64,000 nt of DNA from Mesostigma viride (taxonomy: Eukaryota > Streptophyta > Mesostigmatophyceae > Mesostigmatales > Mesostigmataceae). Within the stretch, counting starts at the first letter, position 1. Each line of letters begins with the position of its first letter. The notes beneath the pieces were generated by a model. That model was not told the origin of the DNA. It searched no databases and saw only the letters and a list, made by a program, of their open reading frames with translations. Made by a program: the position numbers and the translations under genes. Location: positions 1 to 64,000 of the forward strand of contig RPFO01001842.1 in assembly GCA_009746045.1 (NCBI GenBank). Direction: 5' to 3'. This document shows, piece after piece, positions 6,001 to 44,023 of the stretch.

Positions 6001-8695
6001 CTCATAAAATAAATGATGAGGATTCAGGCTCCCATGGTGTCATCATGGCTTGTCTACCTACATTGTTGGCATGTATGTAATTAATGATGAGGATTCAGGC
6101 TCCCATGGTGTCTCCATGGCTGGCCTACGTACATGAATGGCATTTATGTAATTAATGATGAGGATTCAGGCTCCCATGGTGTCATCATGGCCCGTCTACG
6201 TACATGGATGGCATTTATGTAATTAATGATGAGGATTCAGGCTCCCATGGTGTCATCATGGCTTGTCTACGTACATGGTTGGCATTTATGTAATTAATGA
6301 GGAGGATTCAGGCTCCCATGGTGTCATCATGGCCCGTCTACTTACATGGATGGCATTTATGTAATTAATGATGAGGATTCAGGCTCCCATGGGGTCATCA
6401 TGGCTTGTCTACGTACATGGTTGGCATTTATGTAATTAATGAGGAGGATTCAGGCTCCCATGGTGTCTCCATGGCTGGCCTACGTACATGGATGTCAAGG
6501 AATAGTAAATGATGAGGATTCAGGCTCCCATGGTGTCATCATGGCCCGTCTACGTACATGGATGGCATTTATGTAATTAATGATGAGGATTCAGGCTCCC
6601 ATGGGGTCATCATGGCTTGTCTACGTACATGGTTGGCATTTATGTAATTAATGAGGAGGATTCAGGCTCCCATGGTGTCTCCATGGCTGGCCTACGTACA
6701 TGGATGTCAAGGAATAGTAAATGATGAGGATTCAGGCTCCCATGGTGTCATCATGGCCTGTCTACGTACATGGATGGCATGTATGTAATTAATGATGAGG
6801 ATTCAGGCTCCCATGGGTCATCATGGCTTGTCTACGTACATGGATGGCATGTATGTAATTAATGATGAGGATTCAGGCTCCATTGGTGTCATCATGGCTG
6901 GCCTACGTATGTACATGGATGTCAAAGAAAAAAAAAATGATGAGGATTCAGGCTCCCATGGTGTCATCATTGCCCGTGTATGTACATGGTTGCCATTTAT
7001 GTAATTAATGATGAGGATTCAGGCTCCATTGGTGTCATCATTGCCCGTGTATGTACATGGTTGGCATTTATGTATGTAATTAATGATGAGGATTCAGGCT
7101 CCATTGGTGTCATCATGGCTGGCCTACGTATGTACATGGATGTCAAAGAAAAAAAAATGATGAGGATTCAGGCTCCCATGGTGTCATCATGGCCCGTCTA
7201 CGTACATGGATGTCAAGGAATAGTAAATGATGAGGATTCAGGCTCCCATGGTGTCAGATGTCATGGCCTGTCTACGTACATGGATGGCATGTATGTAATT
7301 AATGATGAGAATTCAGGCTCCATTGGTGTCATCATGGCTGGCCTACGTATGTACATGGATGTCAAAGAAAAAAAAATGATGAGGATTCAGGCTCCCATGG
7401 TGTCATCATGGCCCGTCTACGTACATGGATGTCAAGGAATAGTAAATGATGAGGATTCAGGCTCCCATGGTGTCATCATGGCCTGTCTACGTACATGGAT
7501 GGCATGTATGTATTTAATGATGAGGATTCAGGCTCCCATGGTGTCATCATGGCTGGCCTACGTACATGGATGTCTCAGAAAAAAAATGATGAGGATTCAG
7601 GCTCCCATGGTGTCATCATGGCTGGCCTACGTACATGGATGTCAAAGAAAAAAAAATGATGAGGATTCAGGCTCCCGTGGTGTCATTATGGCCCGTCTAC
7701 GTGTTGTTGGCATGTATGAAATTAATGATGAGGATTCAGGCTCCCATAGTGTCATCATGGCTGGCCTACGTACATGGTTGGCATTTATGTAATTAATGAT
7801 GAGGATTCAGGCTCCCATGGTGTCATCATTGCCCGTGTATGTACATGGTTGGCATTTATGTAATTAATGATGAGGATTCAGGCTCCATTGGTGTCATCAT
7901 GGCCCGTCTACGTACATGGACCGTGGCATTTATGTATTTAATGATGAGGATTCAGGCTCCCATGGGGTCATTGATGATCATGGCATTTATGTATGTAATT
8001 AATGATGAGGATTCAGGCTCCATTGGTGTCATCATGGCTGGCCTACGTATGTACATGGATGTCAAAGAAAAAAAAATGATGAGGATTCAGGCTCCCATGG
8101 TGTCATCATGGCCCGTCTACGTACATGGATGTCAAGGAATAGTAAATGATGAGGATTCAGGCTCCCATGGTGTCAGATGTCATGGCCTGTCTACGTACAT
8201 GGATGGCATGTATGTATTTAATGATGAGGATTCAGGCTCCCATGGTGTCATCATGGCTGGCCTACGTACATGGATGTCTCAGAAAAAAAATGATGAGGAT
8301 TCAGGCTCCCATGGTGTCATCATGGCTGGCCTACGTACATGGATGTCAAAGAAAAAAAAATGATCAGGATTCAGGCTCCCGTGGTGTCATTATGGCCCGT
8401 CTACGTGTTGTTGGCATGTATGAAATTAATGATGAGGATTCAGGCTCCCACAGTGTCATCATGGCTGGCCTACGTACATGGTTGGCATTTATGTAATTAA
8501 TGATGAGGATTCAGGCTCCCATGGTGTCATCATTGCCCGTGTATGTACATGGTTGGCATTTATGTAATTAATGATGAGGATTCAGGCTCCATTGGTGTCA
8601 TCATGGCCCGTCTACGTACATGGGTGGCATTTATGTATTTAATGATGAGGATTCAGGCTCCCATGGGGTCATCATGGCTTGTCTACGTACATGGA
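1..8695. repeat. ~70-bp satellite array with nested segmental duplications
   Basis: The whole segment is built from a unit of about 68-72 bp with the core GAGGATTCAGGCTCCCATGG, then GTGTCATCATGG and CTACGTACATGG, then a variable end (GGCATTTATGTAATTAATGA, GTCAAGGAATAGTAA or GTCAAAGAAAAAAAA). That is roughly 120 units. The variable ends recur in the same order in distant blocks: ~1,440-3,110 matches ~6,760-8,440 (offset about 5,320), 3,878-4,084 matches 5,874-6,080 (offset 1,996), and 817 matches 4,581 (offset 3,764). The array therefore grew by long-block duplication as well as single-unit slippage. All long ORFs here are frame-open readings of the repeat and I do not regard them as genes. 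A centromeric, pericentromeric or subtelomeric satellite is possible, but position on the chromosome cannot be seen. Confidence 0.95.
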
Positions 8696-11032: not shown

Positions 11033-12753
11033 AAACATATATATTAAAAATATAATTACTTACAGCAGAGTGAAATCACTCAAACCAAAGCAAACGCCCA
11101 GCTATAAACCTATATACAGAGCCATGTCAAAGCTCTATACTACGATAAGACCAATGGAAACGCCTAACGGGAGGAACCTAATAGCCCTGCTGCACCGCAA
11201 AATCAGCCCGCGTACGGCGGAGCATGATGTCAGCCATGGCCCGAGTCAGCGCCACCGACAAGCGCTGACGCCAATATGACGTCCAGGTCCGCGCCGACCA
11301 TGGGGCCCGCTGGCCCTCCAGGTCCAGCCGATCCTCCCGGAGCCGGCAACACTCCTTGAAGAAGGCGGAGGTCAGGGGCCCCATGGCCCCAAACTCCTCC
11401 AGGACAAAGGGCACCACACGATGGTGCCCGACGTCGCCGTAGGCCAGGAGCTTGGCCCGCTCCGCCCGGTCCGCCGTGTAACCTGCCGTGAGGGAGGCCC
11501 CAGCCACGTGGCTAAGAGCCAAGGGCCGCGCCACCGAAACGTCAATAAGCAGATGCCGGCCACCCCCCTCAAAGTCCAGCACCACGATGTCAGGCCGGTG
11601 GTTGGGGGAATAGAAGGCAGCGCCATCCGCATCCTCGGACCGGATGTTCGCGTGGGGGAAAACCGACCGAATCATGGCGAGCACCACCGTCAGGAGGACA
11701 GTGTGCAAATACAAATACCAATTCTGATTCTGTTGGCCCCCCATGCAGGCAAGGTAGTGAGTCCCCGTGGGATCCAGCGGCTGCCCACAGCTACCACAAG
11801 GCCGCCCGGCCGGAACAAGAGGCTGCGGGGCAAATAGCTGGTGCCGGAGCGCCACCGAGTAGTGGCTGGGAGCCAAGGCGAATGGGGGGCCATGGGAAGA
11901 GCACGAAGGTACGCCGAGCCCACACTCCGCAAGGAAAGCGAGAACAGCCACGCACGTCCCTGGGCGTTGAGGTCCGCGAAAAGAGCAATCCAATCAGCCG
12001 TGTGCAGAATACCCGCGTAGGTTTTCTGGTGTTTATCGATGACGCGAGCAGGGAATGCGGCGGGAGATTGAACGGAGGCGACCGAGGGAGTGCCGCGAGG
12101 GAGGTGGCGCTGTACCGCCTGAGCGGCACGGACGGGAGAACAGGCCTGCTGGATCTCAGCATAGGCCTCCTGGATGGCGGTGACGAAGGGCAAAGGGCTG
12201 CTGGGGTCCAGGAGGTCAGGCGCTGCCGTTGCCAAAAGGGGCAGGAGCCGGCAGCTTTCCGCCCACGACTGAGCGACGGAGCCCAAAAATGCTGCTGGGG
12301 CCAGCCGGGCGGCACGAGTCAGACCGCAGCCACCCATCCGTGCAGGCAGGGAGGCAATGCGAATAGCATGTGGCGGGAGGTCGGGGCCCGGGACCAGCTG
12401 CGCCAAGGCCGACTGGATGCGTTCGTCGTGGCCCTCGGCGGCCAGCCGGACCTGAGACGGAAGAGCGCCCCTGAGCCAGTGAACGACGCGAGGGTGAGCG
12501 CAAAACCACAGAAGCAGACCCTTGGTCTGCGAGTCATGAAGGCGCGCAATCAAGGGCAGTACCTCAGTGCGTGCCTCGAGGGCGGCCCGCAGAGCATCGA
12601 TGACAAACGCGGGGTCGCCAACCGGAACGCCGAGGACATCCAACCCATGGAGGCGCTCGTCCCGGCCCAAGAGCTGGGGCGGAAAGCCGGAGCAATCACC
12701 TTGGGGCGAGTACACCGCGCACTTGGCAAGGGTCAACTGGAGAAACATACATA
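11033..12753 (-). mobile_element. 5'-truncated REL-type LINE copy with imperfect target duplication
   Basis: On the minus strand this segment (11,044-12,742) is nearly base-for-base the 3' 1.7 kb of the longer LINE at 36,918-40,639. Identity starts at the shared 3' end (TTAAAAATATAATTACTTAC read on plus) and stops abruptly at 12,742 inside the reverse transcriptase, the usual 5' truncation of a LINE. The flanks AAACATATATA (11,033-11,043) and AAACATACATA (12,743-12,753) form an 11-bp target duplication with one mismatch. The 3' end abuts an ATATATA tract, as in the other copies. Confidence 0.9.
11178..12742 (-). pseudogene. LINE reverse transcriptase/endonuclease fragment (REL type)
   Basis: The fragment encodes the C-terminal half of the LINE polyprotein: the end of the reverse transcriptase (thumb), a CCHC zinc knuckle (CGSC, then H and C after 9 and 3 residues) and the restriction-like endonuclease with RPDIVV and LIDVSV. 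It lacks the YLDD catalytic motif because of truncation. The frame breaks near 11,885, where a G6 run replaces the G7 run of the 36.9-kb copy, splitting it into 11,178-11,993 and 11,690-12,742. Non-functional on its own. Confidence 0.88.
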
Positions 12754-13483
12754 AAGAGCCAAATCGCGCGAACTACGCAAGGATCCTTTAAGCAGCGTTA
12801 CTCTGCCGAAATGTCAACCTAGGCCGGTCAAGTGACGCCGAGGTGTTCACCGATAGTTCAGGTCAGCCACAGCGCGCCTTCGAATGTAGGCACGGTCGCA
12901 TTTTTTTTTAGGAAATGTAGAATTGTTGTCGACCAGCTACCAACGCCCGACCGGACCCATACAACGGAAACATCAAGGCGATGTGATGTAGGTGTGTCTG
13001 ATATGTCATTAATACACAGAGCATCGTGAATATAATATATAATATAAATTATATAATATACTATAATTAATATATAATTTTAATTTTATGTTAATTTTAA
13101 TGTTATTTCATATAACATAATATAGCATAATATAATATAATATAATATAATATTATATAAAGTAGTATATAAAAAATTAAAATGTAAAAGAAAAATATCT
13201 ACCTTATTGGGGTTTAATGTTCCTTTCCAGTTCAGCATAAGTACACTCTTGAGTGTGTGCAATGTTTGGTTATACGCCATTGTCTTAAAATAGCAACCAA
13301 TGTAAACCTCCGTCCTAACCACATTTGGATACAATAAAGACATTGATGCCTGACACATAGCATTCATTGCTTGAAATACCATGCATATTTTGTGTCAATG
13401 TTCTGCAGACCACAGCTTCAAGTGGGCATACTTCGCTTTCCTCAATATAATGGCGACATGGCATTTGGTGAAAGTGGTGAGTG
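12754..13483. other. AT-rich spacer
   Basis: 13,029-13,190 is a degenerate TATAA/TAATA tract that is almost pure A and T. The rest is unassigned. I see no gene. The tract resembles the AT-rich targets that the LINEs in this window use. Confidence 0.6.
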
Positions 13484-14050
13484 CCATGAAGTTGCGCCGG
13501 CCGTCGTTATCCATGACGAACTGAATGGGTTTCGTGCAAATCAAGTTTTTTGTTTTGGTGTTCCAGTTGCGCCGGCCGGCGTTTCCAATGGTATCTTGCG
13601 CGCACTTGCAAAAGCTTGCACGCTTATCAACATTTTGTGTTGGTAAACATTTTATCACCTCTGGGATTTCCGCCTTCACTACCTGAGTTGCTTCTTTGTG
13701 GTTTTCAAATGCAACCGAGTTACGCCGGCCGTCGTTACTCATGACAAATTGTAGGGGTTTTGTGCAAATCACTTTTGTATGGTTTATGTACATGCATCCA
13801 GTTGCGCCGGCCGGCGTTTCCAATGGTATCTTGCAGTTGCGCAATCAGGCCCCATTACCAAAAGTGTGTTTGTACATCTTTTTTACACCTGAAGGATTTC
13901 TGCCTGCATATCCTGAGTTGCTTCTTAATGGTTTTTAATTGCGCCCGAGTTACGCCGGCCGTCGTTATTAATGACAAACTGTATGTGTTTCATAAAATCA
14001 CTTTTGTATGGTTTACATGTATCCAGTTGCGCCGGCCGGCGTTATTAATG
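13484..14050 (+). repeat. Three tandem ~230-bp repeats carrying GCGCCGGCC motifs
   Basis: Units begin near 13,486, 13,720 and 13,946 with GTTRCGCCGGCCGTCGTT followed by ATGACRAAYTG. Each contains, ~95 bp on, a second element GTTGCGCCGGCCGGCGTT, mostly followed by TCCAATGGTATCTTGC. The third unit ends just ahead of the transposase reading frame. The same GTTACGCCGGCCGTCGTT occurs once more at about 21,467, inside the large intron of that gene, and a variant (GTTGCGCCCCAAGGCGTT) occurs in its other intron. Either this is a repeated intron-like module or these are subterminal sites of the transposon. Confidence 0.8.
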
Positions 14051-14054
14051 ACGC

Positions 14055-16642
14055 TTGTCGTTCTTGTTTGATGCCCATCGTTTTCGTCGTGTCTTTAATG
14101 GTGATTATTTATCATTACTCATCCTCAGGGCTTTCGGTGCCGCGGGATTAAGAGGCGAAAAAAATCAGCTGCCGTCTGACCAAAGTCTGATGGCGCGATC
14201 GGGGCGGGGGGCCGTTTCCGACGGTTCGCGTCCCTTGTCCAATGACGACCGGGAGCCTGCACTTCGCGGTCTCTGGAGCGACAAGTACATCGAGAACAAG
14301 GGGTACAAAATTGCCAATGACATCTTTCCTATCATGGCGGAACGCGTGAAAGCAAACAACCACAGGACGCCAGAGATGAGCGCGGAGGTTCTGTCTTGCG
14401 CAGCTTCAAGACTAAATGCCATGGTGGCGGAGAGCAACGGCATTAAGAAGAGGAAGAACTGTGACGCGGGCTTCCTGAAAGTTGGGCGGAATCTCTTCGG
14501 GATACATCAAGAAGGCTTTTGGCGACTTGGGAACATCTGAGAAGGATCGTGGGCTTAGGTGGGCCTTGTGTGGACTTGTTACGAAGGCAATGGAGGGCGT
14601 CCCGGACAGGATTGTGGAGCGCGCGTTCGGGATTGACAGGCGCTTTGTCGCAACTGTTCGGGGTCACAGGGATGGAATGGAAGAAGGGGAGGACGACCTT
14701 TTGATGAGTGCGCCAGAGAGGAGGAGGAGGAAAGACGAGCTTCCGACGGAAGTCATTGCCCTGATACAAGCGTGCTGGAGGGATGATAACTTGACGCGGG
14801 CGTCTCCGAACATGAAGGATGTTCATTGTGAATGGACCAGAAAGGATTACAAACATACACTAGCGTTTTCGGAGGGTGCGCGCTACTATACTGTCTCCAA
14901 GTCGAAGATTTACGAAGTGTTCATTTCCCGCCATCCGGAGTTGAAGCCACCGCGGCGGATGGACAGTAGGGAGGGGGGGGGGGGAGGGAGAGGAGGGTGT
15001 GAGGGGGGGAAATCAGGTGATTTTGGAGACGGAGGCAGGGATGTCAATGCTACGCACGAATCAGAAGAGCACAGTTCATGTGGGATACACTACTTTTTGC
15101 AAGCATATGCCCGCATGCGTCAAGGGGCGGTGGAAAATGCGGAACTTGTGCGCATGCCAGCACCACACTACCATGCAGTCCATGGTTGGGGGGTTGGCCA
15201 AATTTCGTGCAACTTTTCATGCCAGATGCGAGTGCGGACCTGAATGCCACGCGTGCGATCATGGTAGCCAGCTCGACGTGGGGTCGTCCGTGCCCACATG
15301 TTCCATTTTCAAAGCCACTCACACGACAGAGTGGGTGAACAAGTTTACTTGTGAGGTGGAGGGGATGAGGGAGGGGGGAGGTTCGAGGTCGTCTGTGGGG
15401 TCGTCGCGGCCGCAGGTTCAGCCTTTTCAGGGCGAACTTGAGGATCTGCCCATGCATGGGAGGGTGCTGGACGACGAGGAAGGGGTGCCCGATCATGACC
15501 TGGGCGAGGAGTTGGGGGTTTGCTCGATCCGGCGTAAGGCTTGTGTGTTGGGCACTTGCCTGGCTCCCAAGTGTGGAATTCGGAACTTCATGTTATGCGA
15601 ACGGGAGGAGGCTTCCAACCACCTGATTTCATGGACCAGATACGAGATGCAGGATGTGCCGCCGGGTGCGGTTCTTGGGCCAGAGGTAATTTTTAGTGGA
15701 GTGGTTGCGCCCCAAGGCGTTTCTTTTGCAATGTTTCCTGAAGTTCTTGGGCCAGAGGTAATTTTTAGTGGAGTGGTTGCGCCCCAAGGCGTTTCTTTTT
15801 CAATTTTTCCTGAGGTCCTGTCTTTTTTCTTTCTACAGGTCATTGGTGGGTCGAAGTTGATGTCTTTTCTGTATGTGCACACTGCGCATATGCAGGACGA
15901 CTGTGACGAGATCGCAAAGGCTGGTGGGCAGCGATTGACGCAAGTCGACGTCAAGTCCACACCAACGGAGCTAAAGGAGGCAATTGTGGACAAGTGGCCG
16001 GACTTCATCCAGCATTGCTTCAACGCGTGGTGGCAAGCGGACGCCTCCAAGGAATGTCTCTCAAGGATGCGGGTGGGGGACCTTGTATGCCACACAGATT
16101 ACGCCGAGAACTACCAGTCTTACACCTATCACAATCTCCAAGCACAGTATTGGCATCCAGTCACATTCGTCCTTATGCCCTGGATCGTGCGCTACTTGGA
16201 TCCAGCGTCGGGAAAGGTCGTGAGAAGGGAGTTTCACTTCATCGGACAGGGCGGAATGAAAAGGGACGGGCGGGCCCTCCGTTTTGCTATCCTCAAAATC
16301 CTGGCGACACTACGGTCAGAAGGGGTAGAGGTGAAGCGCTTCATTGGGTGGTCGGACAATTGCTCCATGCAGTTCAAGTCAAGGAATGTGATCGCGGAAG
16401 TGGCCCGGCTGCTGACGGAGGATCCGCACCTGGAGTCATTTGAGTGGAATTACTTTGGGGAGCAGCACGGAAAGGGGGAGGTGGATGGAGCTGGTGGGAC
16501 TGTGAAGTGCATGTTGAGGAGGTGGCACATCAGGGAAGAGAACCAGGACAAACAGACGGCCGCCCAGTTGGTGGAGAATCTGGCGTCGGGGGCGGTGGGC
16601 GGGACCACAACGACCAGGCGTAACTTCTTCGAGTTCCCCGAG
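14055..16642 (+). pseudogene. DDE-like transposase, N-terminal and catalytic exons (broken frame)
   Basis: The reading frame passes through three overlapping ORFs (14,055-14,540; 14,482-15,243; 14,999-16,642) that join only by frame changes near 14,480 and in the G-rich run at 14,972-15,010. In order it shows an N-terminal helical region, a Cys/His-rich finger-like segment (CKHMPAC, NLCACQHH), a first acidic motif CHTDYAENY, a second GWSDNCSMQFK, and the block HGKGEVDGAGG. The set of spaced acidic motifs and the HGKG..DG.GG block is what I associate with a DDE-type transposase family of algae and invertebrates. I cannot assign the superfamily. An in-frame intron 15,686-15,838 has donor GAG|GTAATT and acceptor CTACAG|GTC. 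The exon ends at 16,642 (GAG|GTAATT), phase 0, and the downstream exon is at 21,596. Confidence 0.7.
15671..15814 (+). repeat. 72-bp tandem duplication containing the 5' splice site
   Basis: 15,671-15,742 and 15,743-15,814 are near-identical and both contain the exon end CCAGAG|GTAATT. The intron therefore has two equivalent donors 72 bp apart (24 codons, same frame), and splicing at either would keep the frame. Confidence 0.85.
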
Positions 16643-16671
16643 GTAATTAAGTGTACAGTCCTCGTTCAGGG

Positions 16672-17415
16672 TGTCAAATATCTAGCGATGTTTCTCTACT
16701 TTTGTCACGCATTATGTTATCACGCATTATATGCGGGGAAAATTGACGCCGTCAGCTAGGTGTTTATTTACACGACTTGTTGTTGGGTTTGCATCCCTAT
16801 TAATTGCACCCACAGGTCGTTGACTAGTTTAATATCATATACAATGTTTGAGTGTACTAAAATCCGAATGATGTTGCTCGGAAAACAGCAAGCGTTACCT
16901 GTCAGCACCGTTACAGGTGCCGTAATTTACATCGGCTCTCTCCGGATCAGATCAGGTCCGCAGTTTGTGGTGCCGCCCTGGAGGCGATAGGACTTTGAGC
17001 CTATCAGACCACACACACAATGTACCATGATGTGGACAATAGATTACAGGCTGCAAAGTCGTTATTATCTAGTGTTCTTTCCGTGGTTGTAGAGACGCTA
17101 AGCTGCAGTGCCGTCAGATGTAAATCAACGGTGCATAATGCATTAGCCGCCACTACTTTGTGTTCCTAGAGTTGTTTGCTTGCCTAGCCGTGTGTGGCCC
17201 CGACCCAGTGTTGGTCGTGTGACCCTGCCCAGTGTTGGCATTGTCATTTGCCCTGGCCCAGTGTTGGCTATGGTAGACTGCGCCCAGTGTTGGCCGCACC
17301 GTGTTTTCCACTCTCAGTAAACGTATTTTAATACAAGAAGTCTTTTCCATACACTTGTGCAATATCTGGGTCATAACAGGCAAAAGATCTTTCCTCCGAG
17401 CCCCGGTTTCTGACA
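16672..17415 (+). repeat. LTR 1 of TR-GAG array
   Basis: 744 bp, TG...CA ends. At 17,203-17,300 it contains four spaced copies of CCAGTGTTGG, a candidate regulatory repeat of the LTR. Confidence 0.92.
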
Positions 17416-17432
17416 TGGTATCGAGTAGCGAG
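17416..17432 (+). promoter_or_regulatory. Primer binding site (Copia-like)
   Basis: TGGTATCGAGTAGCGAG directly follows the LTR. Its first seven bases equal the TGGTATC start of initiator-Met-tRNA primer sites of Copia elements (usually TGGTATCAGAGC). The rest diverges, so the primer tRNA is uncertain. A second copy lies at 19,436. Confidence 0.6.
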
Positions 17433-17434
17433 TG

Positions 17435-17833
17435 ATGCCTATGAACCCATATTTTCCAATTCCCAACGACCGCAACCTGAGATCTGGAATTGAGCTTTTT
17501 CAATTTCCCGAAGAATCTTGCCCAGACTACCTCGCAAGAGCAAATCTGCTTTTTGCCCAAGTTGAAGACATCTTCCCGGGCGTGTTTCCTGAATCTGCCT
17601 ACTGCCGCTGGCTCCTGCGTGGCATTCGACAAGAATTTTTCAACTGTGTGTGTTTCAGCGAACTTCCAGACTTTTCAATCAGAAATCTACAGGATCTGCT
17701 CGACAACAACGCAGTATCTCTGGAGAGATTAAATCACACTTTACTTCACATTACAAATCTCCAACGCAATCAAGAACATGTCGGGAGGTGCGCCAGCTGT
17801 GGCACGAGAAGTCAAGGAGAGCAGCGTTCTTAG
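17435..17833 (+). CDS. Small ORF upstream of and overlapping gag (TR-GAG copy 1)
   Basis: A 132-codon ORF starting ATGCCTATG twenty bases after the LTR. I do not recognise the product. It has an aromatic/acidic helical region (FPEESCPDYLARANLLF, FPGVFPESAYCRWLL) of gag-like flavour and ends in a Cys/Arg-rich tail produced by the overlap. It overlaps the gag start at 17,778 by 56 bp. gag lies in the +1 frame, so a +1 frameshift or reinitiation could link them. The same ORF is at 19,455-19,853, but because the two copies are recent duplicates this is not independent evidence of selection. Confidence 0.45.
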   Translation: MPMNPYFPIPNDRNLRSGIELFQFPEESCPDYLARANLLFAQVEDIFPGVFPESAYCRWLLRGIRQEFFNCVCFSELPDFSIRNLQDLLDNNAVSLERLNHTLLHITNLQRNQEHVGRCASCGTRSQGEQRS

Positions 17834-18661
17834 TGCTCTCAAGAATCTCAACTTTGATGGGAGCGACCCCAAGAAATTCACCGGATTCCGAATCAAGGCG
17901 GAAGGGCAATTCGACGCCCTCGGATATTCAGATGTACTAGCTGGAAAGGATCCGATCGTGGTAAAGCAGCAAAAAATTGGTTACGCTGCCCTGATTGCTG
18001 GCCTCGACGGCAACGCGCTACTGCATGCCGCTACGGCCCCCAACAAGTATATGCACGAGGCGTGGACCGTCCTGGTTGACGTCTATGGACGTGACGAAAC
18101 GACATCCACCCATCAGGCCGCGACACTTGAGGAACTGCTGTCAGCTGAGCAGATTCCCATGGATTCTGTTCCTGCAAATGTCAATCTCACCGAACGATTG
18201 TACCTGCAATATAATAAATTAAGCAACAATAAACTCCATGATTCCATCCTGGTGACATCACACCGCCGCAGACTTCCTGCCCAGTATGGCCCCGTCCTGG
18301 CGGCGTACAACCTTCCCCCGACTTGACGTGGAAAGACTACAAGACCGCCGTCCTGAAAGTGGACGACCATCTGCGTGTGCACCGCGCGGCCCAAGCTGGC
18401 AGCTCAGATTCCAGTGCACCAGTGTATCATACTGCTGCCTGCCCCCACTGTGCGGGTACTATCGACGAATCAGTCTTCCTCACCAAGGGTGGGAAAGTGC
18501 TGACCTGCAAGCACTGCCACCGTACCGGTCACACTGAGGATCGCTGCTGGTCCAAGAAGGCGGAGAACAAGTCCAAGAAACCTGAGGCGCACTTCACCAT
18601 GGACGGCGAGCCACTGGCTGACGACGTGGCAGATGTTCCTGCTGGTTTTTTCATTGAGTAG
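17778..18661 (+). pseudogene. gag (copy 1), inactivated by a 1-bp deletion
   Basis: Identical to the intact gag at 19,798-20,682 except that a C6 run is C5 at about 18,314-18,318. This shifts the frame and ends the protein at codon 183 (18,326), before the zinc knuckle. The downstream part with the knuckle is still present in another frame up to 18,661. Confidence 0.92.
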
Positions 18662-18691
18662 CCGGAATACGTGACATGCAGTATGGGGGTG

Positions 18692-19435
18692 TGTCAAATA
18701 TCTAGCGATGTTTCTCTACTTTTGTCACGCATTATGTTATCACGCATTATATGCGGGGAAAATTGACGCCGTCAGCTAGGTGTTTATTTACACGACTTGT
18801 TGTTGGGTTTGCATCCCTATTAATTGCACCCACAGGTCGTTGACTAGTTTAATATCATATACAATGTTTGAGTGTACTAAAATCCGAATGATGTTGCTCG
18901 GAAAACAGCAAGCGTTACCTGTCAGCACCGTTACAGGTGCCGTAATTTACATCGGCTCTCTCCGGATCAGATCAGGTCCGCAGTTTGTGGTGCCGCCCTG
19001 GAGGCGATAGGACTTTGAGCCTATCAGACCACACACACAATGTACCATGATGTGGACAATAGATTACAGGCTGCAAAGTCGTTATTATCTAGTGTTCTTT
19101 CCGTGGTTGTAGAGACGCTAAGCTGCAGTGCCGTCAGATGTAAATCAACGGTGCATAATGCATTAGCCGCCACTACTTTGTGTTCCTAGAGTTGTTTGCT
19201 TGCCTAGCCGTGTGTGGCCCCGACCCAGTGTTGGTCGTGTGACCCTGCCCAGTGTTGGCATTGTCATTTGCCCTGGCCCAGTGTTGGCTATGGTAGACTG
19301 CGCCCAGTGTTGGCCGCACCGTGTTTTCCACTCTCAGTAAACGTATTTTAATACAAGAAGTCTTTTCCATACACTTGTGCAATATCTGGGTCATAACAGG
19401 CAAAAGATCTTTCCTCCGAGCCCCGGTTTCTGACA
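18692..19435 (+). repeat. LTR 2 of TR-GAG array
   Basis: 744 bp, same ends as LTR 1. Preceded by GCAGTATGGGGGTG, a weak polypurine-like tract. Shared by the two internal regions as 3' LTR of the first and 5' LTR of the second. Confidence 0.92.
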
Positions 19436-19454
19436 TGGTATCGAGTAGCGAGTG

Positions 19455-19853
19455 ATGCCTATGAACCCATATTTTCCAATTCCCAACGACCGCAACCTGA
19501 GATCTGGAATTGAGCTTTTTCAATTTCCCGAAGAATCTTGCCCAGACTACCTCGCAAGAGCAAATCTGCTTTTTGCCCAAGTTGAAGACATCTTCCCGGG
19601 CGTGTTTCCTGAATCTGCCTACTGCCGCTGGCTCCTGCGTGGCATTCGACAAGAATTTTTCAACTGTGTGTGTTTCAGCGAACTTCCAGACTTTTCAATC
19701 AGAAATCTACAGGATCTGCTCGACAACAACGCAGTATCTCTGGAGAGATTAAATCACACTTTACTTCACATTACAAATCTCCAACGCAATCAAGAACATG
19801 TCGGGAGGTGCGCCAGCTGTGGCACGAGAAGTCAAGGAGAGCAGCGTTCTTAG
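19455..19853 (+). CDS. Small ORF upstream of and overlapping gag (TR-GAG copy 2)
   Basis: Same 132-codon ORF as at 17,435, here ahead of the intact gag. Function unknown. If it is translated, the short spacing after the LTR suggests it is the first ORF on the element RNA, with gag reached by reinitiation or +1 frameshift. Confidence 0.45.
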   Translation: MPMNPYFPIPNDRNLRSGIELFQFPEESCPDYLARANLLFAQVEDIFPGVFPESAYCRWLLRGIRQEFFNCVCFSELPDFSIRNLQDLLDNNAVSLERLNHTLLHITNLQRNQEHVGRCASCGTRSQGEQRS

Positions 19854-20682
19854 TGCTCTCAAGAATCTCAACTTTGATGGGAGCGACCCCAAGAAATTCA
19901 CCGGATTCCGAATCAAGGCGGAAGGGCAATTCGACGCCCTCGGATATTCAGATGTACTAGCTGGAAAGGATCCGATCGTGGTAAAGCAGCAAAAAATTGG
20001 TTACGCTGCCCTGATTGCTGGCCTCGACGGCAACGCGCTACTGCATGCCGCTACGGCCCCCAACAAGTATATGCACGAGGCGTGGACCGTCCTGGTTGAC
20101 GTCTATGGACGTGACGAAACGACATCCACCCATCAGGCCGCGACACTTGAGGAACTGCTGTCAGCTGAGCAGATTCCCATGGATTCTGTTCCTGCAAATG
20201 TCAATCTCACCGAACGATTGTACCTGCAATATAATAAATTAAGCAACAATAAACTCCATGATTCCATCCTGGTGACATCACACCGCCGCAGACTTCCTGC
20301 CCAGTATGGCCCCGTCCTGGCGGCGTACAACCTTCCCCCCGACTTGACGTGGAAAGACTACAAGACCGCCGTCCTGAAAGTGGACGACCATCTGCGTGTG
20401 CACCGCGCGGCCCAAGCTGGCAGCTCAGATTCCAGTGCACCAGTGTATCATACTGCTGCCTGCCCCCACTGTGCGGGTACTATCGACGAATCAGTCTTCC
20501 TCACCAAGGGTGGGAAAGTGCTGACCTGCAAGCACTGCCACCGTACCGGTCACACTGAGGATCGCTGCTGGTCCAAGAAGGCGGAGAACAAGTCCAAGAA
20601 ACCTGAGGCGCACTTCACCATGGACGGCGAGCCACTGGCTGACGACGTGGCAGATGTTCCTGCTGGTTTTTTCATTGAGTAG
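19798..20682 (+). CDS. Copia-like Gag polyprotein with CCHC zinc knuckle (intact)
   Basis: A 294-residue ORF. Residues ~20-120 have the look of the Copia-type gag domain (UBN2-like): LNFDGSDPKKFTGFRIKAEG, then KQQKIGYAALIAGLDGNAL and the LVDVYG segment. Near the C-terminus CKHCHRTGHTEDRC is a C-x2-C-x4-H-x4-C nucleic-acid-binding knuckle, preceded by a CPHC pair. Gag would form the particle and package element RNA, while all enzymes must come from an autonomous Copia element elsewhere. It starts at the ATG inside the upstream small ORF and stops 30 bp before LTR 3. Confidence 0.88.
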   Translation: MSGGAPAVAREVKESSVLSALKNLNFDGSDPKKFTGFRIKAEGQFDALGYSDVLAGKDPIVVKQQKIGYAALIAGLDGNALLHAATAPNKYMHEAWTVLVDVYGRDETTSTHQAATLEELLSAEQIPMDSVPANVNLTERLYLQYNKLSNNKLHDSILVTSHRRRLPAQYGPVLAAYNLPPDLTWKDYKTAVLKVDDHLRVHRAAQAGSSDSSAPVYHTAACPHCAGTIDESVFLTKGGKVLTCKHCHRTGHTEDRCWSKKAENKSKKPEAHFTMDGEPLADDVADVPAGFFIE

Positions 20683-20712
20683 CCGGAATACGTGACATGC
20701 AGTATGGGGGTG

Positions 20713-21456
20713 TGTCAAATATCTAGCGATGTTTCTCTACTTTTGTCACGCATTATGTTATCACGCATTATATGCGGGGAAAATTGACGCCGTCAGCTAG
20801 GTGTTTATTTACACGACTTGTTGTTGGGTTTGCATCCCTATTAATTGCACCCACAGGTCGTTGACTAGTTTAATATCATATACAATGTTTGAGTGTACTA
20901 AAATCCGAATGATGTTGCTCGGAAAACAGCAAGCGTTACCTGTCAGCACCGTTACAGGTGCCGTAATTTACATCGGCTCTCTCCGGATCAGATCAGGTCC
21001 GCAGTTTGTGGTGCCGCCCTGGAGGCGATAGGACTTTGAGCCTATCAGACCACACACACAATGTACCATGATGTGGACAATAGATTACAGGCTGCAAAGT
21101 CGTTATTATCTAGTGTTCTTTCCGTGGTTGTAGAGACGCTAAGCTGCAGTGCCGTCAGATGTAAATCAACGGTGCATAATGCATTAGCCGCCACTACTTT
21201 GTGTTCCTAGAGTTGTTTGCTTGCCTAGCCGTGTGTGGCCCCGACCCAGTGTTGGTCGTGTGACCCTGCCCAGTGTTGGCATTGTCATTTGCCCTGGCCC
21301 AGTGTTGGCTATGGTAGACTGCGCCCAGTGTTGGCCGCACCGTGTTTTCCACTCTCAGTAAACGTATTTTAATACAAGAAGTCTTTTCCATACACTTGTG
21401 CAATATCTGGGTCATAACAGGCAAAAGATCTTTCCTCCGAGCCCCGGTTTCTGACA
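20713..21456 (+). repeat. LTR 3 of TR-GAG array
   Basis: 744 bp, same ends, followed directly by the right target copy CAGGG and then the rest of the host intron. Confidence 0.92.
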
Positions 21457-21595
21457 CAGGGAATAGTTACGCCGGCCGTCGTTTCTAGGGCGTTCTTGGA
21501 GTCCTGGCGATCAGGAGTGCTTAATAAAACACAACTAGCTCGATGGTCTCGTAACTTCAACTTTCCCTTGTGCAAATCTTGTCTTCGACGCGCAG

Positions 21596-22327
21596 GTGCT
21601 TCCTTACAGCCCAGGGCGCGGCGAAATCAAAGGAGTGAAGAAGGCGCACTGGTGGCGCATGGACAAGTCGAATGTGACGCGCTTAATGCTGCGCCAGTAT
21701 TCCTGCTATTGTGGCGGTGCGTGCGCCGAGGAAAGGTGGTGGGATTGTCGAAAGGAGTGGACCGACATGGACGGCTGGAATGTGGGAGGTGCTCGGATGA
21801 AGCTCCACAAACTGGGGGAGCCAGTGCAAAGGAACCCAAACGGACAAGGGGGGCACGCAGGGACGCGACTGAACAGACTACAGGCAGAGAGGACGATGAT
21901 GGGAAGGAGACTGAAGCTGCGAGACATTTTTGCCGTCGAGTCCTACTCTGGTGATGAGTCCCACGATCCAGATCATCCATATTGGCTAGCGGAAGTCTTG
22001 CAGGAGCCTTATCAGGTGGCCGCTACTTTCGTGAGGCGAGTGGCCGACAGAAACGGCAAGGTCGATAGGGAGTTGTTCCGTAAGGGACAATGGGTGGTGG
22101 GGGTGCGCTACTGGGACAGATTTCCGGGTATGGCGACGATGTTCAAAATGGACGCCGATGCGCAAGCTGAACAGCCAAACTTGGTCAATTGCTACCTGTG
22201 CATGGACGCGGGGTTCGAACACACCATTGTTGTCAACCCAGCTAACAATCGCCAGGCCATCTTGACCATTCCGACAGACGTCGAGAAACGGCTCACGAAC
22301 TTGGCCAAGAAGAGACCTGTTGAGTAG
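21596..22327 (+). pseudogene. DDE-like transposase, C-terminal exon
   Basis: Begins after acceptor CGCAG|GTG in phase 0 relative to the exon ending at 16,642. It encodes 243 residues to a TAG stop. The N-terminal part is basic (KGVKKAHWWRMDKSNV). The C-terminal part has DPDHPYWLAEVLQEPYQV and KGQWVVGVRYWDRFPG, a chromo/BAH-like beta-rich module that I associate with the C-terminus of this transposase family. The exon itself is open. I call the gene broken because of the upstream frame changes and the insertion in its intron. Confidence 0.65.
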
Positions 22328-24039: not shown

Positions 24040-24700
24040 ATTGAAGGGTTGGGGCCGAAAGCGCGGTACGTCTGCTGGGCGACTATACTGCGTTTGGAAT
24101 CAGGTGATGCCGAGGGCGAAGCCGCAGGAGGAGCCTCGAGTAGACTAGTTACTAACGCTTTAGTAGTGTCACCGCTGCCTGCTAGGCCGCGCGGAACTGC
24201 AGCGGGAGCTGCAGGCCTGCGTATTTTCTTGGCTCATCGCAGCCGCCAGACTGCGTTGCGTAGAGCGTTTGCAAGCTCGTTGTGACTGTATTGCGTTTAC
24301 AATATATTATATATATAGCTAGTTTAATTTATATAATATATATGGAGGGCCAGCGGGCCCCATGGTCGGCGCGGACCTGGACGTCATATTGGCGTCAGCG
24401 CTTGTCGGTGGCGCTGACTCGGGCCATGGCTGACATCATGCTCCGCCGTACGCGGGCTGATTTTGCGGTGCAGCAGGGCTATTAGGTTCCTCCCGTTAGG
24501 CGTTTCCATTGGTCTTATCGTAGTATAGAGCTTTGACATGGCTCTGTATATAGGTTCATAGCTGGGCGTTTGCTTTGGTTTGAGTGATTTCACTCTGCTG
24601 TAAGTAATTATATTTTTAATATATATATAGCTATAGCTTCTGGAAAATATATCAGCGTGTGCGTCTTAGAAAGACGAAGCCATAATTGTGATATATTTGC
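24040..24700 (-). mobile_element. L1-ORF1-like repeat family, inverted 5' fragment
   Basis: Read on minus, this repeats the leader and N-terminal coding part of the same family (CTACGCAACGCAG, then the Ala-rich start and GACACTA) in opposite orientation to the flanking copy. It is split by the LINE tail at 24,343-24,620. An internal inversion or an insertion of a second truncated copy explains it. Confidence 0.65.
24343..24620 (+). mobile_element. REL-type LINE, 3' tail fragment
   Basis: A 5'-truncated copy of the LINE seen at 11.0 and 36.9 kb, here on plus. It holds the last ~45 codons of the ORF (to TAG at 24,485) and the complete 3' UTR ending TAATTATATTTTTAA. It lies between ATATAATATATAT and ATATATATAG tracts, so its target was again an AT dinucleotide run. 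Confidence 0.92.
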
Positions 24701-26020: not shown

Positions 26021-26363
26021 ACAGGGGTTAATATGGTAGCATAACAACACAAAACAGGATGCCAAGTGGCATAAAATAGCAAGGGATGCCCAAATGGGCA
26101 TAAAACACCATAATCATGCAATAAAACAAGAGACCATGCCATATAACACATGCCAAGATGCCGCAAGGGGCCAAAATGTCACTAGCGCACGCGTGGTAGC
26201 GCATGCATGACTACCCAAGGGTGTAGCTAACTGTCAAGGCTACCTGGCTATGTGCCAAACTAAGTCAGATTGTGCCTCTGGGTGCATGCGCAGAAACTGC
26301 CTCCTACGAGGCCCTGTCAGCTGGGTGCCAGCTGCCAGCGCACGGGTCGTGCGGCCATTGGCC

Positions 26364-28651
26364 TCAGCCCACGCGCGGCCAGCCGGGCTGCGGGATGACA
26401 GGGGCTGCATGGCACGCTGGCGGCGGTCGTCGCCGTCGATCGAGGCCAGCCAGTGGCCCTGCGTGGAACACGTTCCAGCACGCGCCCGCGCACAGTGCCT
26501 GGTCGCAGTCCTTGCACCAGAAGTTGGTGCGCTTGCGCTCGGGGATCGTGGCGCACACCACACACTGCGCCGCCTCCGTCCACGGGATGCGCTCGGGTAC
26601 GAGGTGGGTGCCGCTGAACCGCCCGTCCAGCCCAGGCTGCATGGTGGGCCTCCGCGATGCGGTCGATGTCCAGCCGGGCGCCATGCCACTGATTGTTCAC
26701 CAGCTGCTGTGAGAGCAAGCTGAGGAACCCCACGTGGGAGAGGCAGTCAGGGCGGTTGGCGCGGGTGAGAGTCTGCAGGATGTAGGCGTTGCCGACCGCG
26801 TTGGCCAGGTGCCCCGTGGCGACCCGGTGCCACCACACCCGCGAGACAAGGGCCTTCTGCAGGTCGTAGTTGCTGGCGAGCTGGTCAAACTTGTCCACTG
26901 CCTTGTAGCAGCTCCAGTACGCGGGAATGAGCGAGGGGGCAGTGACCATGACGCGCTCGTCGCGGCCGCCATGGCGGCTGACCATCTCCTCCTCAAAGGG
27001 GATGCCCTTGGCCAGCACCCACACGAGCTTGCGGTCCTGCCACGCGCACAGGGTCAGCCCATCACGGTTGACAGCCCATGCGTAGTCCCCCTGGACTGGC
27101 CTGCGGGGCATGCGGCGCTTGACCTCGGCGACGGGGATGCCACGGCGGTTGGGGAGCACCGTGCCCACCACACGGTGGCCCATGCGGTGGCACGTCTCAA
27201 TCACCTCGCGCCCGGTGTAGAACCGGTCCATGGCCATGTTGACCCCGTGTGGCAGCGTGCTGGCGAGCTCACTCACCACGTGAAAGGTATGGTTGACCTG
27301 GGGTGCCCAGCTTGTCGTACGTGTTGGCATGGTAGAGGTAGCCGGTGGGCCAGTCGTTCAGGCAATACTGCTTCACGTGGAAGGGGGCAGGCTTGCTCGG
27401 GTTGAAGCACCTTATCGGGCACAGCTTGTGCCTGGATGCGATGCTCCTCTCGTCGATGGCGGCCGCGCTGCCTGGGATGAAGTACTTCTTGTAGGCCACG
27501 TTCAAGATGTCCTCCAGCCACAAGAACTGCCACAGTCGCCACTCGCGTGTCTGCGTGTTGGCGGGGCGCTGGGCAGAGTCCCGGAAGTGTAGGAAGCGTG
27601 TAATTTGCTGAAAGCGCTGAAAGGGCATCACGTGCTGCAGGTTAGCAGCATGAGCAGCACCAAGTGGCTGGCCAGAAAAATAATCAGACCGGGCAGGCAT
27701 GGCCACGAGTGACATGGTCAAGAGGAGGCCCAGCCACTTGCCCAGCTCGTTCATGGAAAGAGGCGACCACTCCCGTGCCCCAGCAGATGCCGTGCGCTGC
27801 TTCTCCTCGGCATAGCGGTTTGTCTCCTTGACAATCCGCTCCAGCACGGGGCCAGGCTGCCAAAACAGCAAGAATAGCTCGAGAGGAGAAAACCTGTAAG
27901 GAACCCCCGGGATGTTCTGATACATCGCCTTGCGCTCACCGTCAACCGGCTCAGAATGCCGCGGGCGGGGAAGTGTTGCAGGATCCGGCGTGCCAGTGCC
28001 GAACACCCACCCATCGTCGCCATCGTCGCCACCATCGGGAGCATCGTCCCCCGCCTCCTCCGCCTCAGCATCGCTGTCAACGAGCTCGGGAACGACGTCG
28101 TCATCGACAGAAGAGTCGCTGGCCTCGGAGTCGGGTTGATCCGGAGGGGGCAGCCGCTGCAGACGCCTCCTTGCAGCAGGCGCGATGGCTGGAGTCTTCC
28201 TCGGGTTGCCTGCACGACACTTGGCACGTTTCTTGACCGGGGAAGTGGAGATATCCTCGCTATCCCCCTCGTCATCCGCCTCGGGCTCCGATGCCGGCTC
28301 CGAGGCATCTGGACCGTCACCTGCGCTCCCACCTTCCTGCCCATCGCTGCCTGCATCCCCTTCCTCCTCTACCTCGTCCTCCGCAGGCCTAGAGGTCTCT
28401 CCTACCTTCCTGAACTGAAAAATCTGCTCTTTTGTCAACTTATATTTGCATGGATCGTCGACAAATTTGCACCATCCGTGATTCTTATCGCGTGTCACCT
28501 CCGCTACATGGCCGTCTAGACGATAATGCGCATGATTCTCACCATATTCTTGCACTGCCCACGGCTCTCCGAAGAAGGCCGGAGGCACTGCCACCTTAAA
28601 TCCAAGTTTCAGTCGAAATGTGGCCAGCAGCTGGCCAGTAGGCGACGCCAT
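26364..28651 (-). pseudogene. piggyBac transposase (DDE_Tnp_1_7), frameshifted
   Basis: ATG at 28,651 (MASPTGQ; codons upstream lack ATG). After a short N-terminal domain come a long acidic, Ser-rich linker and the catalytic core. Core motifs are first Asp in AIDERSIASRHK with FHVKQYCLND, second in NMAMDRFYTGREV, and third in KAVDKFDQLAS. The C-terminus has a Cys-rich cross-brace finger (CVVCATIPERKRTNFWCKDC) typical of piggyBac. The frame breaks at about 27,295 (C4 run) and again near 26,650, so the finger lies in a third frame ending at 26,364. All catalytic Asp residues are present, so the copy may be recently dead or carry consensus errors. Confidence 0.9.
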
Positions 28652-28967
28652 GTCTGTCGAGGTCAAACGTCGTTTCGTCGTCGTGCACGTCTTTTTGCAA
28701 AAAACGCAGATTTTTTTCCCGCCGAAAGTACCCCAGGACCAGGGTACCCCCCTGGGTTTGCCAGATCAGTACTCCCTGGCCAAGTGTCCAAAGTACGGTC
28801 TGAAGTGCTCTACGGAAAGCTGAGATCTAGATCTTTCAATCCCGCCAGGTGGCACCATCAAATTATTTTTGGCGCGGCGCCTGCCAAGGCGCACAAACTC
28901 AGTCCGTTAGAGTGGCGCGAGTTCAACTGGTACCACTAAAACGGACTCAGTACCATTTAAGGGTTAA

Positions 28968-31084: not shown

Positions 31085-31486
31085 ATATTAGCGCACAGCG
31101 TTATAGTATACCTGAAGTCAATTAGCTCTGGCACCTTGTGGTCATCAGCTTGCGCCTTAATTAGCCGACATCTTGAGCCCACCTCACGTTTGTAGCATAT
31201 AAGCTATGTGTCAGCCTACCTATGGTATTAATTAATGCTCCGTGACTCCCCAACGGGAGCACGAGTCTAATTAATTAATTATGGTATTGCACTGGTTGTA
31301 TTGCACCCACAGTGTTGCGCCCCGGCATATATGATGCACCATGCTAGGTGGCGAGAGCGCTCTGTGGCCTGCCCACTTGCGGCAGTGAGAGAAGCTAGGG
31401 CGCCCTCCCTCCTTCTCGCTGTGTATATAGGGTTGAAGGTTCCTTTACTCTGTATTGGTACCCACGTGACGCAGTCACGTTCTTAT
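31085..31486 (+). repeat. Dispersed LTR-like repeat, copy 1
   Basis: Shares a long collinear stretch (GCACCCAC, CTGTGGCCTGCCC, GTGAGAGAAG, GGTTGAAGGTTCCTT, GGTACCCACGTGACGCAGTCACG) with 55,570-55,870 inside a ChlH intron. TGTATATAGGG at 31,421 could be a TATA box, so it may be a solo LTR or the promoter part of an unknown element. Confidence 0.65.
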
Positions 31487-31490
31487 TAAT

Positions 31491-32411
31491 TAATTCATTC
31501 ATTCATTCATTCATTCATTCATTCATTCATTCATTCATTCATTCATTCATTCATTCATTCATTCATTCATTCATTCATTCGTTCGTTCGTTCGTTCGTTC
31601 GTTCGTTCGTTCGTTCGTTCGTTCGTTCGTTCGTTCGTTCGTTCGTTCGTTCGTTCGTTCGTTCGTTCGTTCGTTCGTTCGTTCGTTCGTTCGTTCGTTC
31701 GTTCGTTCGTTCGTTCGTTCGTTCGTTCGTTCGTTCGTTCGTTCGTTCGTTCGTTCGTTCGTTCGTTCGTTCGTTCGTTCGTTCGTTCGTTCGTTCGTTC
31801 GTTCGTTCATTCATTCATTCATTCATTCATTCATTCATTCATTCATTCATTCATCATTCATTCATTCATTCATTCATTCATTCATTCATTCATTCATTCA
31901 TTCATTCATTCATTCATTCATTCATTCATTCATTCATTCATTCATTCATTCATTCATTCATTCATTCATTCATTCATTCATTCATTCATTCATTCATTCA
32001 TTCATTCATTCATTCATTCATTCATTCATTCATTCATTCATTCATTCATTCATTCATTCATTCATTCATTCATTCATTCATTCATTCATTCATTCATTCA
32101 TTCATTCATTCATTCATTCATTCATTCATTCATTCATTCATTCATTCATTCATTCATTCATTCATTCATTCATTCATTCATTCATTCATTCATTCATTCA
32201 TTCATTCATTCATTCATTCATTCATTCATTCATTCATTCATTCATTCATTCATTCATTCATTCATTCATTCATTCATTCATTCATTCATTCATTCATTCA
32301 TTCATTCATTCATTCATTCATTCATTCATTCATTCATTCATTCATTCATTCATTCATTCATTCATTCATTCATTCATTCATTCATTCATTCATTCATTCA
32401 TTCATTCATTA
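31491..32411. repeat. 0.9-kb tetranucleotide array, (ATTC)n with a central (GTTC)57 block
   Basis: 31,491-31,580 is ATTC, 31,581-31,808 is an uninterrupted GTTC block (228 bp, 57 units), and 31,809-32,411 is ATTC again with one 1-bp phase slip near 31,853. The minus ORFs reading N-E-R-T repeats are artefacts of this array. Confidence 0.98.
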
Positions 32412-33758
32412 ATTGCGGTATTCAAGGCCGACGTCAAGCCACGAGCCACGAGGTAGCCATGGGTGACGGCGGAGCTCATGAATAACTTTCACGTTTGAGC
32501 ACCGAATTTAGCCGTGAATATCACAATCGACGCGTCTTTCTACGACGCACATGCTGATATACTTTTCCGAAGCTATTACGCAATATACGATGAGCAAACG
32601 CCCATCGACGCAACCCAGCCTGACGGCTGCGCTCGGCAATGAAAATACATCTGCAGCTTCGGCTGCAGCTTCGCCCTCAGGCCCGGCAGGCAGCGGTGAC
32701 ACTAGTCGCGCACTGGTGGTCGCCCAGCACCCTCCCGGGCTTCCTGCCTAGCCTTCAGCCTCGCCCGAGCCCAAACGCAGCCGCCCAACCGAACCTAGCT
32801 GGTCTGAGGACGACTTTGACGTTGACGAGTTATTTTCAATCTTCGACGTCAACAGACCCGGCTATTTCGACAGGGCACCCATCCGGATCCTGGAGCTTTT
32901 TTTTTATTGGTCGTATGCCTCCCTTTTCAACCTGTGCCAGCGCCTCCAACGCCATAAATGCTTCCGCATGCAGCCAGTCTGATGGCAGTTCCAGCCCCGT
33001 GCACTGACCTGTCTGGCTGGACGCGACCGCGCCTTCAGCTTGCCGCCCTCTTTTCCATCCTTCAGCGCCGTGCCACGGACGTCTGGCGCCCCACCCCCCT
33101 GACCGAATCCACCCTCCTCCTCTACCTCAACGAAGCCCTCTCACAGCACGTGACGCCCCTAGCTGCAGATGTGGCAGCTGTGAGTCGCACGCTGGCTGCT
33201 GAGCTCCCCACCATCCCCACCGCCACCGCCACCCTCCTCGCCTCCACCCCCCCCCTCCCTCCGCCTCCACCGACGCTGGCATCACCACCGAGCCGCTCCG
33301 CGACATTGACCAGCGCCTTAAGGACAATGCAATCGCCATCGAGGTCCTGCAAAACACCGCAGGCCTCACCGCCCAGGCGGTGAAGGACATTGCCGCCAAG
33401 CCAGCACCGGCTGGCCTGGCCGGCGATGCTCCTTCCATCCCGACCTGGGCGGACATGCTTAAGCAGCTCACGCCATGGCATTGCCACCTCCATGCACCAC
33501 CTCCGCCGTCGCAGCACAGCTCCAGCAGCAGACGCTCGACCTCCGCGAGGAGGCCGAGCTCGCCAAGCGCAGCCTCAACGTCATTGTCTTGAAAGAACTT
33601 CGACATGGAGGAAGGTGAGAATTCCGAGAAGCTTGCAGTTTGAGAGAGAAATTCTTAGTCGCATGGGCCTTACTGGTGAGATCGAGCTGGTTGCCCACCG
33701 CCTCCCCCGGCCGCGCGCGGGGTAAGGCAGGGGCGCCCCCGCTCCTTCTCACCTTTAA
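32412..33758 (+). mobile_element. L1-ORF1-like repeat family, copy C, 5' part
   Basis: Starts beside the tetranucleotide array with CCACGAGCCACGAGGTAGCC, ATGGGTGACGGCGGAGCTC and ACTTTCACG, then the same leader as copy B and an ATG at 32,590 (MSKRPSTQPSLTAAL). The coding frame is broken repeatedly but keeps the helical, coiled-coil (REEAELAKRSLNVIV-like) and RMGLTGEIELV blocks. A TTAA insertion interrupts it at 33,758 and it resumes at 35,448. Confidence 0.8.
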
Positions 33759-43600: not shown

Positions 43601-44023
43601 GACGAGAAACAGCTTGTGGCCGAGTTCGTCGAGAGGGTGACTATGCATCCGGGCCAGGGAAAGCAGGGCGCAGCGCGTAAACAAGCTCCGGGCGCGGTGA
43701 GGGACGTCCGGGAGCGTCATGCAAGGGTTGCGCGCACAGGCGGCAAAAGGGAGCGTGGCCAGGAATGCCCAGCCTGCCGAGAGGTCCCCCGGATCGCTCG
43801 TACCCTGCGATGCCGGTGGAGGGGCAGGGGCCGACCGAGGGGCCGCCCCGGACCGGGAGGCCGGTGCGGCCGCCGGGCCGCCGGGCGGGCTGTTCTGGGG
43901 GGTTTGGCGGCGGCACTGCCGCTCATGCTGGTACCGCCCGTGGATCGAAAAAATCCGCTGGCAATGGGCTGCCGGGCAGCGGTAGCAGTCCATGGCGCGC
44001 ATGGCGGCCTCCAGGATATATAT
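40650..44023 (-). mobile_element. REL-type LINE (subfamily 2), 5'-truncated, same target decamer
   Basis: A related but clearly different LINE in the same orientation, directly upstream of subfamily 1. Its 5' boundary is GGATATATAT at 44,014-44,023 and its 3' side ends at the decamer at 40,640-40,649. Coding starts within the second zinc finger, so ~140 N-terminal residues are missing relative to subfamily 1. The 3' UTR (about 40,650-40,857) is unlike that of subfamily 1. Confidence 0.85.
40859..44013 (-). pseudogene. LINE polyprotein, subfamily 2, frameshifted
   Basis: The same domain order as subfamily 1 spread over four frame segments: 43,160-44,013 (CYRCPAAHCQRIFSIHGR finger to SSTGPSGWRYEHL), ~42,680-43,163 (RPIACGEVLRKLVSKVICR, VDCHNAFN), 41,746-42,690 (TQQGDPLGPF, catalytic AYMDDIHALG), ~41,570-42,010 (thumb), and 40,859-41,566 (CGSCGLALDTTGTHYIAC knuckle, RPDITV...LLIDVSV nuclease, stop). 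Catalytic residues are kept but the frames are not, so this copy is dead and looks older than subfamily 1. Confidence 0.9.

Follow-up and report, generated by a model that had tools for sequence, protein, structure and literature searches.

How an array of three long terminal repeats (LTRs) and two gag-bearing internal regions came to lie between a single pair of target-site duplications (TSDs) is the question raised by positions 16667-21461 of contig RPFO01001842.1, whose first 64,000 nucleotides were analysed as one stretch and are called the window here. An earlier note, made from the letters of the window, had described three apparently identical 744-bp LTRs and two gag units framed by one CAGGG pair, and had seen in them what seemed to be one TR-GAG insertion, freshly amplified, that was expanded by LTR-LTR unequal exchange or integrated as a multimer. 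In our assessment it is moderately probable, taking the reading as a whole, that a gag-only TR-GAG-like element, mobilised in trans, was inserted here once and became a tandem by unequal exchange between its LTRs.

Structure and insertion of the array

Base-by-base comparison gave the order CAGGG, LTR, internal region, LTR, internal region, LTR, CAGGG and bore out the description of three identical LTRs and two gag units within one CAGGG pair. The LTRs are 744 bp each with zero differences among them, whereas the internal regions of 1276 bp (17416-18691) and 1277 bp (19436-20712) differ solely in a run of cytosines, which has five residues in unit 1 (C5) and six in unit 2 (C6). A frameshift interrupts the gag gene in unit 1, whereas in unit 2 it is open over 294 amino acids. 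Repeats of 744 bp (100% identical) and about 1277 bp (99.9%) are not chance, and a single unit of the element, with its 744-bp LTRs, measures 2765 bp. No further copies of the LTR, the internal region or gag were found in the window beyond weak matches, namely one 40-bp LTR stretch (77.5%) and tblastn matches at E values of 1.9 and 4.4.

Several features expected of a TR-GAG element are present: direct LTRs with TG...CA ends (here TGTCA...TGACA), a 5-bp TSD in the window as in 38 of the 46 copies scored elsewhere in the genome (see below) and, judged by sequence and position, a primer site that follows the 5' LTR and a purine tract that precedes the 3' LTR. TGGTATCG abuts the 3' ends of LTR 1 and LTR 2, and GTATGGGGGTG abuts the 5' ends of LTR 2 and LTR 3. 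The primer-site start TGGTATC presumably fits Copia. Together with the lack of pol, the LTRs and the TSD support the assignment as TR-GAG-like, and the alternation of internal regions with shared LTRs inside one TSD pair corresponds to the tandem organisation L3I2. Gag is preceded by a second open reading frame (ORF1), which starts just 3' of the primer site, so that the element has two frames; when the stretch was simulated 20000 times with an order-1 model, a frame as long as ORF1 arose in a fraction of 0.0012.

The CAGGG motif occurs at both edges of the array and not once within it. The array lies in an inferred intron of a plus-strand host gene, parts of which occupy 14945-16642 and 21596-22327, with a second inferred intron at about 13476-14093. 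When the 1239-bp right flank, corresponding to the 3' part of this gene, was used as a query, 40 matches were scored among 310 candidates, and all of them, on large and small contigs, were full-length and 100% identical. Four of these 40 listed copies were read as empty sites, and each of them matches the joined flanks across 300 bp and has one CAGGG. It follows that a single clean insertion with a 5-bp duplication brought in the array, as the earlier note had supposed, and two independent or nested insertions were rejected in view of the one TSD pair and the absence of internal CAGGG.

The host gene has no Pfam match. Its high copy number and identity suggest that it is probably part of a mobile element, which may be a DNA transposon. 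It gives the picture of a very recent, large burst, and a motif containing GCCGGCCG recurs in both of its introns.

Table 1. Positions of the array, its parts and the surrounding host gene in the window
Feature	Position	Strand	Basis or remark
Inferred intron holding the array, GT...AG, phase 0	16643..21595	+	GAG/GTAATT ... GACGCGCAG/GTG; predicted frame FFEFPE/VLPYSP continues
TSD, left: CAGGG	16667..16671	.	single CAGGG in 4/4 empty sites
LTR 1	16672..17415	+	identical to LTR 2 and LTR 3
Primer-binding-site candidate TGGTATCGAGTAGC, unit 1	17416..17429	+	directly 3' of LTR
ORF1, 132 amino acids from ATG, leader frame, unit 1	17435..17833	+	reading frame and simulation
gag unit 1, 5' part, frameshift-shortened	17778..18326	+	remainder in frame 18323-18661
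Polypurine-tract candidate GTATGGGGGTG, unit 1	18681..18691	+	sequence and position
LTR 2, common to both units	18692..19435	+	LTR alignment
Primer-binding-site candidate, unit 2	19436..19449	+	sequence and position
ORF1, 132 amino acids, unit 2	19455..19853	+	132 amino acids in 42/46 scored copies
gag, 294 amino acids, C-x2-C-x4-H-x4-C knuckle near C terminus	19798..20682	+	294 amino acids in 39/46 scored copies
Polypurine-tract candidate, unit 2	20702..20712	+	sequence and position
LTR 3	20713..21456	+	LTR alignment
TSD, right: CAGGG	21457..21461	.	matches left copy; empty sites
Downstream exon of host gene	21596..22327	+	inside stretch with 40 or more matches, each full-length and 100% identical

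A young, apparently gag-only family and its relatives

In the genome assembly (439.9 Mb, 2243 contigs) the exact 23-base junction of LTR and primer site occurs 79 times, and a pair of junctions about 2 kb apart is found only in the window, a count that is blind to tandems with a changed junction. From the 77 other junctions 48 were fetched and 46 were scorable, with L018 (N) and L051 (cut by the fetched stretch) excluded. The eight scored copies that lack matching 5-bp flanks comprise L026 (N upstream), L049 (cut by the fetched stretch), L027 and L033 (short 5' LTRs), L024 and L030 (LTR ends beyond the alignment) and L042/L045, in which the tail of an extra internal region precedes a complete unit, that is, a truncated tandem.

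The internal region is identical to that of unit 2 in 29 of the 46 copies, the whole element is identical to the unit in 10, and 35 LTR pairs, truncated pairs counted, are free of substitutions; the LTR variant of the window was found in 14 of 48 5' LTRs. These data show that the family is very young and recently amplified, as had been proposed, with many copies identical. With this many identical copies, the identity of the LTRs by itself tells little about the origin of the tandem. Some copies represent one insertion present on two contigs (L031/L032, and also L042/L045 and L014/L046, with 8 bases matching on each side), and therefore independent insertions are fewer than the copy count; L053/L055 have at least the 5-bp flank in common. 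In L013-L015, L021, L044, L046, L047 and L050 several LTR variants with 3-4 changes accompany an internal region without differences along its 1277 bp; LTR and internal lineages may have recombined, or the internal region may be under stronger constraint.

The C5-type frameshift occurs at five places (C1645, C2045, C1160, C1956 and C998), one of which, a copy with another LTR variant, has G at LTR position 493, and for the single insertion L031/L032 one contig reads C6 and the other C5. Given this recurrence and this disagreement, slippage or base-calling error is the likelier source of the C5/C6 difference, and its use as a mark of two parental cDNAs was dropped.

Pol in other copies, which the earlier note had named as a refutation, was not seen in the 46 scored copies, by a criterion of length and reading frames rather than a per-copy domain search. 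Internal regions measure 1275-1280 bp in 44 of them and are too short to leave room for pol. The other two, L031 and L032, carry a 2.1-kb insert (1122-3258 of L031 as oriented) that interrupts the gag-only element at one shared position and with the same target duplication, and in this insert no frame of 110 amino acids was found. When the genome was searched with the gag protein, 133 of 980 candidates were scored and yielded 134 matches, and none of the 134 lies in a frame of more than 409 amino acids, although the other 847 candidates could hide distant pol-bearing relatives. A second gag group makes up 38 of the 134 matches, at 52-67% identity.

From a related family one unit was read, with a 635-bp LTR, the primer site TGGTATCGCG, a 127-amino-acid leader ORF and a 287-amino-acid gag; judging by this unit, the related family would also be gag-only. 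The genome contains 14 occurrences of its LTR start. On a 704-kb contig (C47), five LTR starts and four gag matches follow one another at exact 2040-bp steps, amounting to an array of five LTRs and four internal regions of about 8.8 kb. The gag proteins of the two families are about 60% identical (z about 50 above shuffles), with a nonsynonymous divergence (dN) of 0.36 and a synonymous divergence (dS) that was not computable and was treated as saturated. Between the leader ORFs (132 versus 127 amino acids) no alignment beyond chance was obtained (z 0.5). Runs of short repeats, CCCAGTGTTGG and CC(T/G)AGTTGG, are similar in the LTRs of both families.

In the window family 14 distinct changes in gag were counted, of which 8 are synonymous, compared with an expected fraction of 0.237 (P 0.007), whereas for ORF1 the corresponding 2 of 4 (P 0.21) are not informative. 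Outside the genome, nothing was found when viral contigs were searched for gag and ORF1, prokaryote genome contigs for gag, and both sets for the LTR-primer-site word. We tentatively suggest that the gag-only elements may form a lasting, self-standing lineage of capsid-only parasites rather than recent deletion derivatives of Copia, because selection maintains gag in two families or more, with gag about 60% alike, because both have a leader ORF of similar size, though not alignable, because the genome yielded no relative with pol, and because both expand locally into tandem arrays.

Proposed unequal exchange and competing origins of the tandem

According to the favoured reading, RNA of the element would be made from its LTR and packed with gag, and would then be copied and inserted in trans by enzymes (reverse transcriptase, integrase and RNase H) that another element supplies; the likeliest supplier would be one of the many Copia elements in this genome. 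One recent copy would have been inserted into the intron of the high-copy host gene with its 5-bp duplication. Exchange (or break repair) between unlike LTRs on sister chromatids or homologues would then have converted this single copy into LTR-internal-LTR-internal-LTR, the same event leaving one product with the tandem and its counterpart with a solo LTR.

With respect to the supplier, a search for the Copia reverse transcriptase domain RVT_2 gave 150 scored matches among 1981 candidates, many of them in frames of 1000-1755 amino acids, and Copia polymerases in long frames are thus abundant in the genome. This part of the expectation of an active Copia partner stood; among the contigs compared, the RVT_2 match closest to a gag match is 12.7 kb away. 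With respect to the exchange, the LTR start occurs at 190 places, and among the 100 listed, 70 pair within 6 kb, 8 are near a junction or a gag match, and 22 are neither; among the gag matches listed, not one lies within 8 kb of any of these 22. Judged by position, these 22 would be consistent with solo LTRs as left by LTR-LTR exchange. Because these solo-LTR-like sites and the five-LTR array of the related family fit it, unequal exchange would be the likeliest route, rather than integration of a dimer.

Several observations weigh against this reading. The solo-LTR call was made from positions only, at 100 of 190 places, some of them on short contigs where elements have perhaps been cut off. 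One full tandem was found among 79 exact junctions, in addition to the truncated L042/L045, so exchange would leave few tandems in the window family. The tandem is known from the assembly alone, on a 90.6-kb contig, and duplication by assembly is possible; a ready-made dimer, once integrated, would look identical. The Copia partner, which would be expected to share LTR ends or primer site with the element, is putative. Copia-type gag is UBN2 or similar, and no Pfam gag family recognises the 294-amino-acid protein or the gag of the related family, which divergence may explain; the protein is therefore called gag for its position, its CCHC knuckle and its conservation. A single-sequence fold of gag was unusable (pLDDT 36.9), and no solved structures similar to it by sequence were found.

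The main rival is a ready-made dimer, a tandem transcript or cDNA that integrase inserted once after it had arisen by cDNA recombination, by template switching or by transcription reading through a one-LTR circle. It is rather unlikely in our estimation, although one TSD pair and identical LTRs fit it equally well and the exact steps of the five-LTR array might be those of a multimer. The available text of a rice study leaves both mechanisms open (PMC11899658). Solo LTRs would not be expected from integration of a dimer, but sites that resemble them are present, whereas the occurrence of one full tandem among 79 junctions is a weak argument against either model.

Duplication during assembly, in which an extra unit results from misjoined identical LTRs, appears improbable. 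The array contig (C1645) is short, 10 of the 46 copies scored do not differ from the unit at any base, and two contigs with the same insertion differ over about 6 kb by 28 gap columns, some of which may be end overhang, and 10 substitutions. However, the array is smaller than 5 kb, the larger array of the related family sits in a long contig, and the units differ by one base, which is possibly an error itself. Least probable of all is that free cDNA recombined, without integrase, into the LTR of an existing single copy, as in the yeast case mentioned in the available text of PMC11899658: the variant identical in 14 of 48 5' LTRs means that a second cDNA would leave no mark, but there is no positive evidence and the C5/C6 difference is uninformative.

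Neighbouring repeats and known systems

Other repeats were observed in the window. Copies of a non-LTR-like retroelement lie at 11037-12742, 24343-24628, 36910-40198 and 40859-44125, with an RVT_1 match in one frame; two of these copies are 99.6% identical over 1.7 kb, and one frame break falls at a C-run. An open frame of 1020 amino acids (45036-48095), which looks Penelope-like, has a weak reverse-transcriptase match to a group II-type model and none in Pfam. On the minus strand, 26317-28765 encodes in two overlapping frames a DDE_Tnp_1_7 transposase, presumably of piggyBac type. An 8.6-kb minisatellite with units of about 71/142 bp occupies 43-8695, and a 930-bp (ATTC)n tract 31485-32414. 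Exons for magnesium-chelatase H at 51-58 kb indicate a chlorophyll-making organism and, with their introns, a photosynthetic eukaryote, probably an alga.

TRIMs are much smaller than the window element and carry no gag. In the available text of the plant survey, tandem TRIM arrays, including L3I2 and L5I4, are reported from 35 of 43 TRIM-bearing plant genomes, and TRIMs also from three algae (PMC4717578); the word gag is absent from the main text of that study as available. The organisations are the same as those found here, L3I2 in the window and L5I4 in the related family. Larger elements, too, form tandems with three LTRs, described from rice, Arabidopsis, almond and cotton in the accessible part of PMC11899658, and the window array resembles these tandems in having three LTRs, two internal regions and one TSD pair. 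One rice tandem lies within a DNA transposon (MULE), which may be compared with the array in its repeated host gene. The 28 selected Nipponbare rice tandems have conserved retrotransposon domains and are mostly Gypsy, whereas the window array is gag-only (PMC11899658, same part).

Mobility of a TR-GAG element, AT5TE33540, has been reported in Arabidopsis (PMC8704663, partial text), and the window element is like it in having two LTRs, a gag frame, no pol and recent mobility. It differs in its Pfam-unrecognised gag, its 132-amino-acid leader ORF and its probable algal host, and AT5TE33540 has a pol-bearing relative, AT3TE48480, whereas none was found for the window family. A survey counted 3,147 TR-GAG over a species set that includes 18 Chlorophyta (PMC10025401, partial text); within a literature search of partial coverage this was the only source for Chlorophyta, and no paper on an algal TR-GAG was found. 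Neither an Ectocarpus paper (PMC12477816) nor that on MegaLTR (PMC10552921) contributed anything decisive.

The family, very young and with many identical copies, is one whose mobility could be tested, and its gag-only relatives open the question of why an element keeps its own gag while borrowing all else. Of the novelty claimed in the earlier note, the probable algal TR-GAG-like example stands, but the tandem form is not new, since L3I2 arrays are common in plant genomes according to the available texts of PMC11899658 and PMC4717578. Both halves, the TR-GAG element and the tandem form, are thus known from plants, and what is added here is that they occur together in what is probably an alga, that a leader ORF precedes gag and that there are further, related families with gag only.

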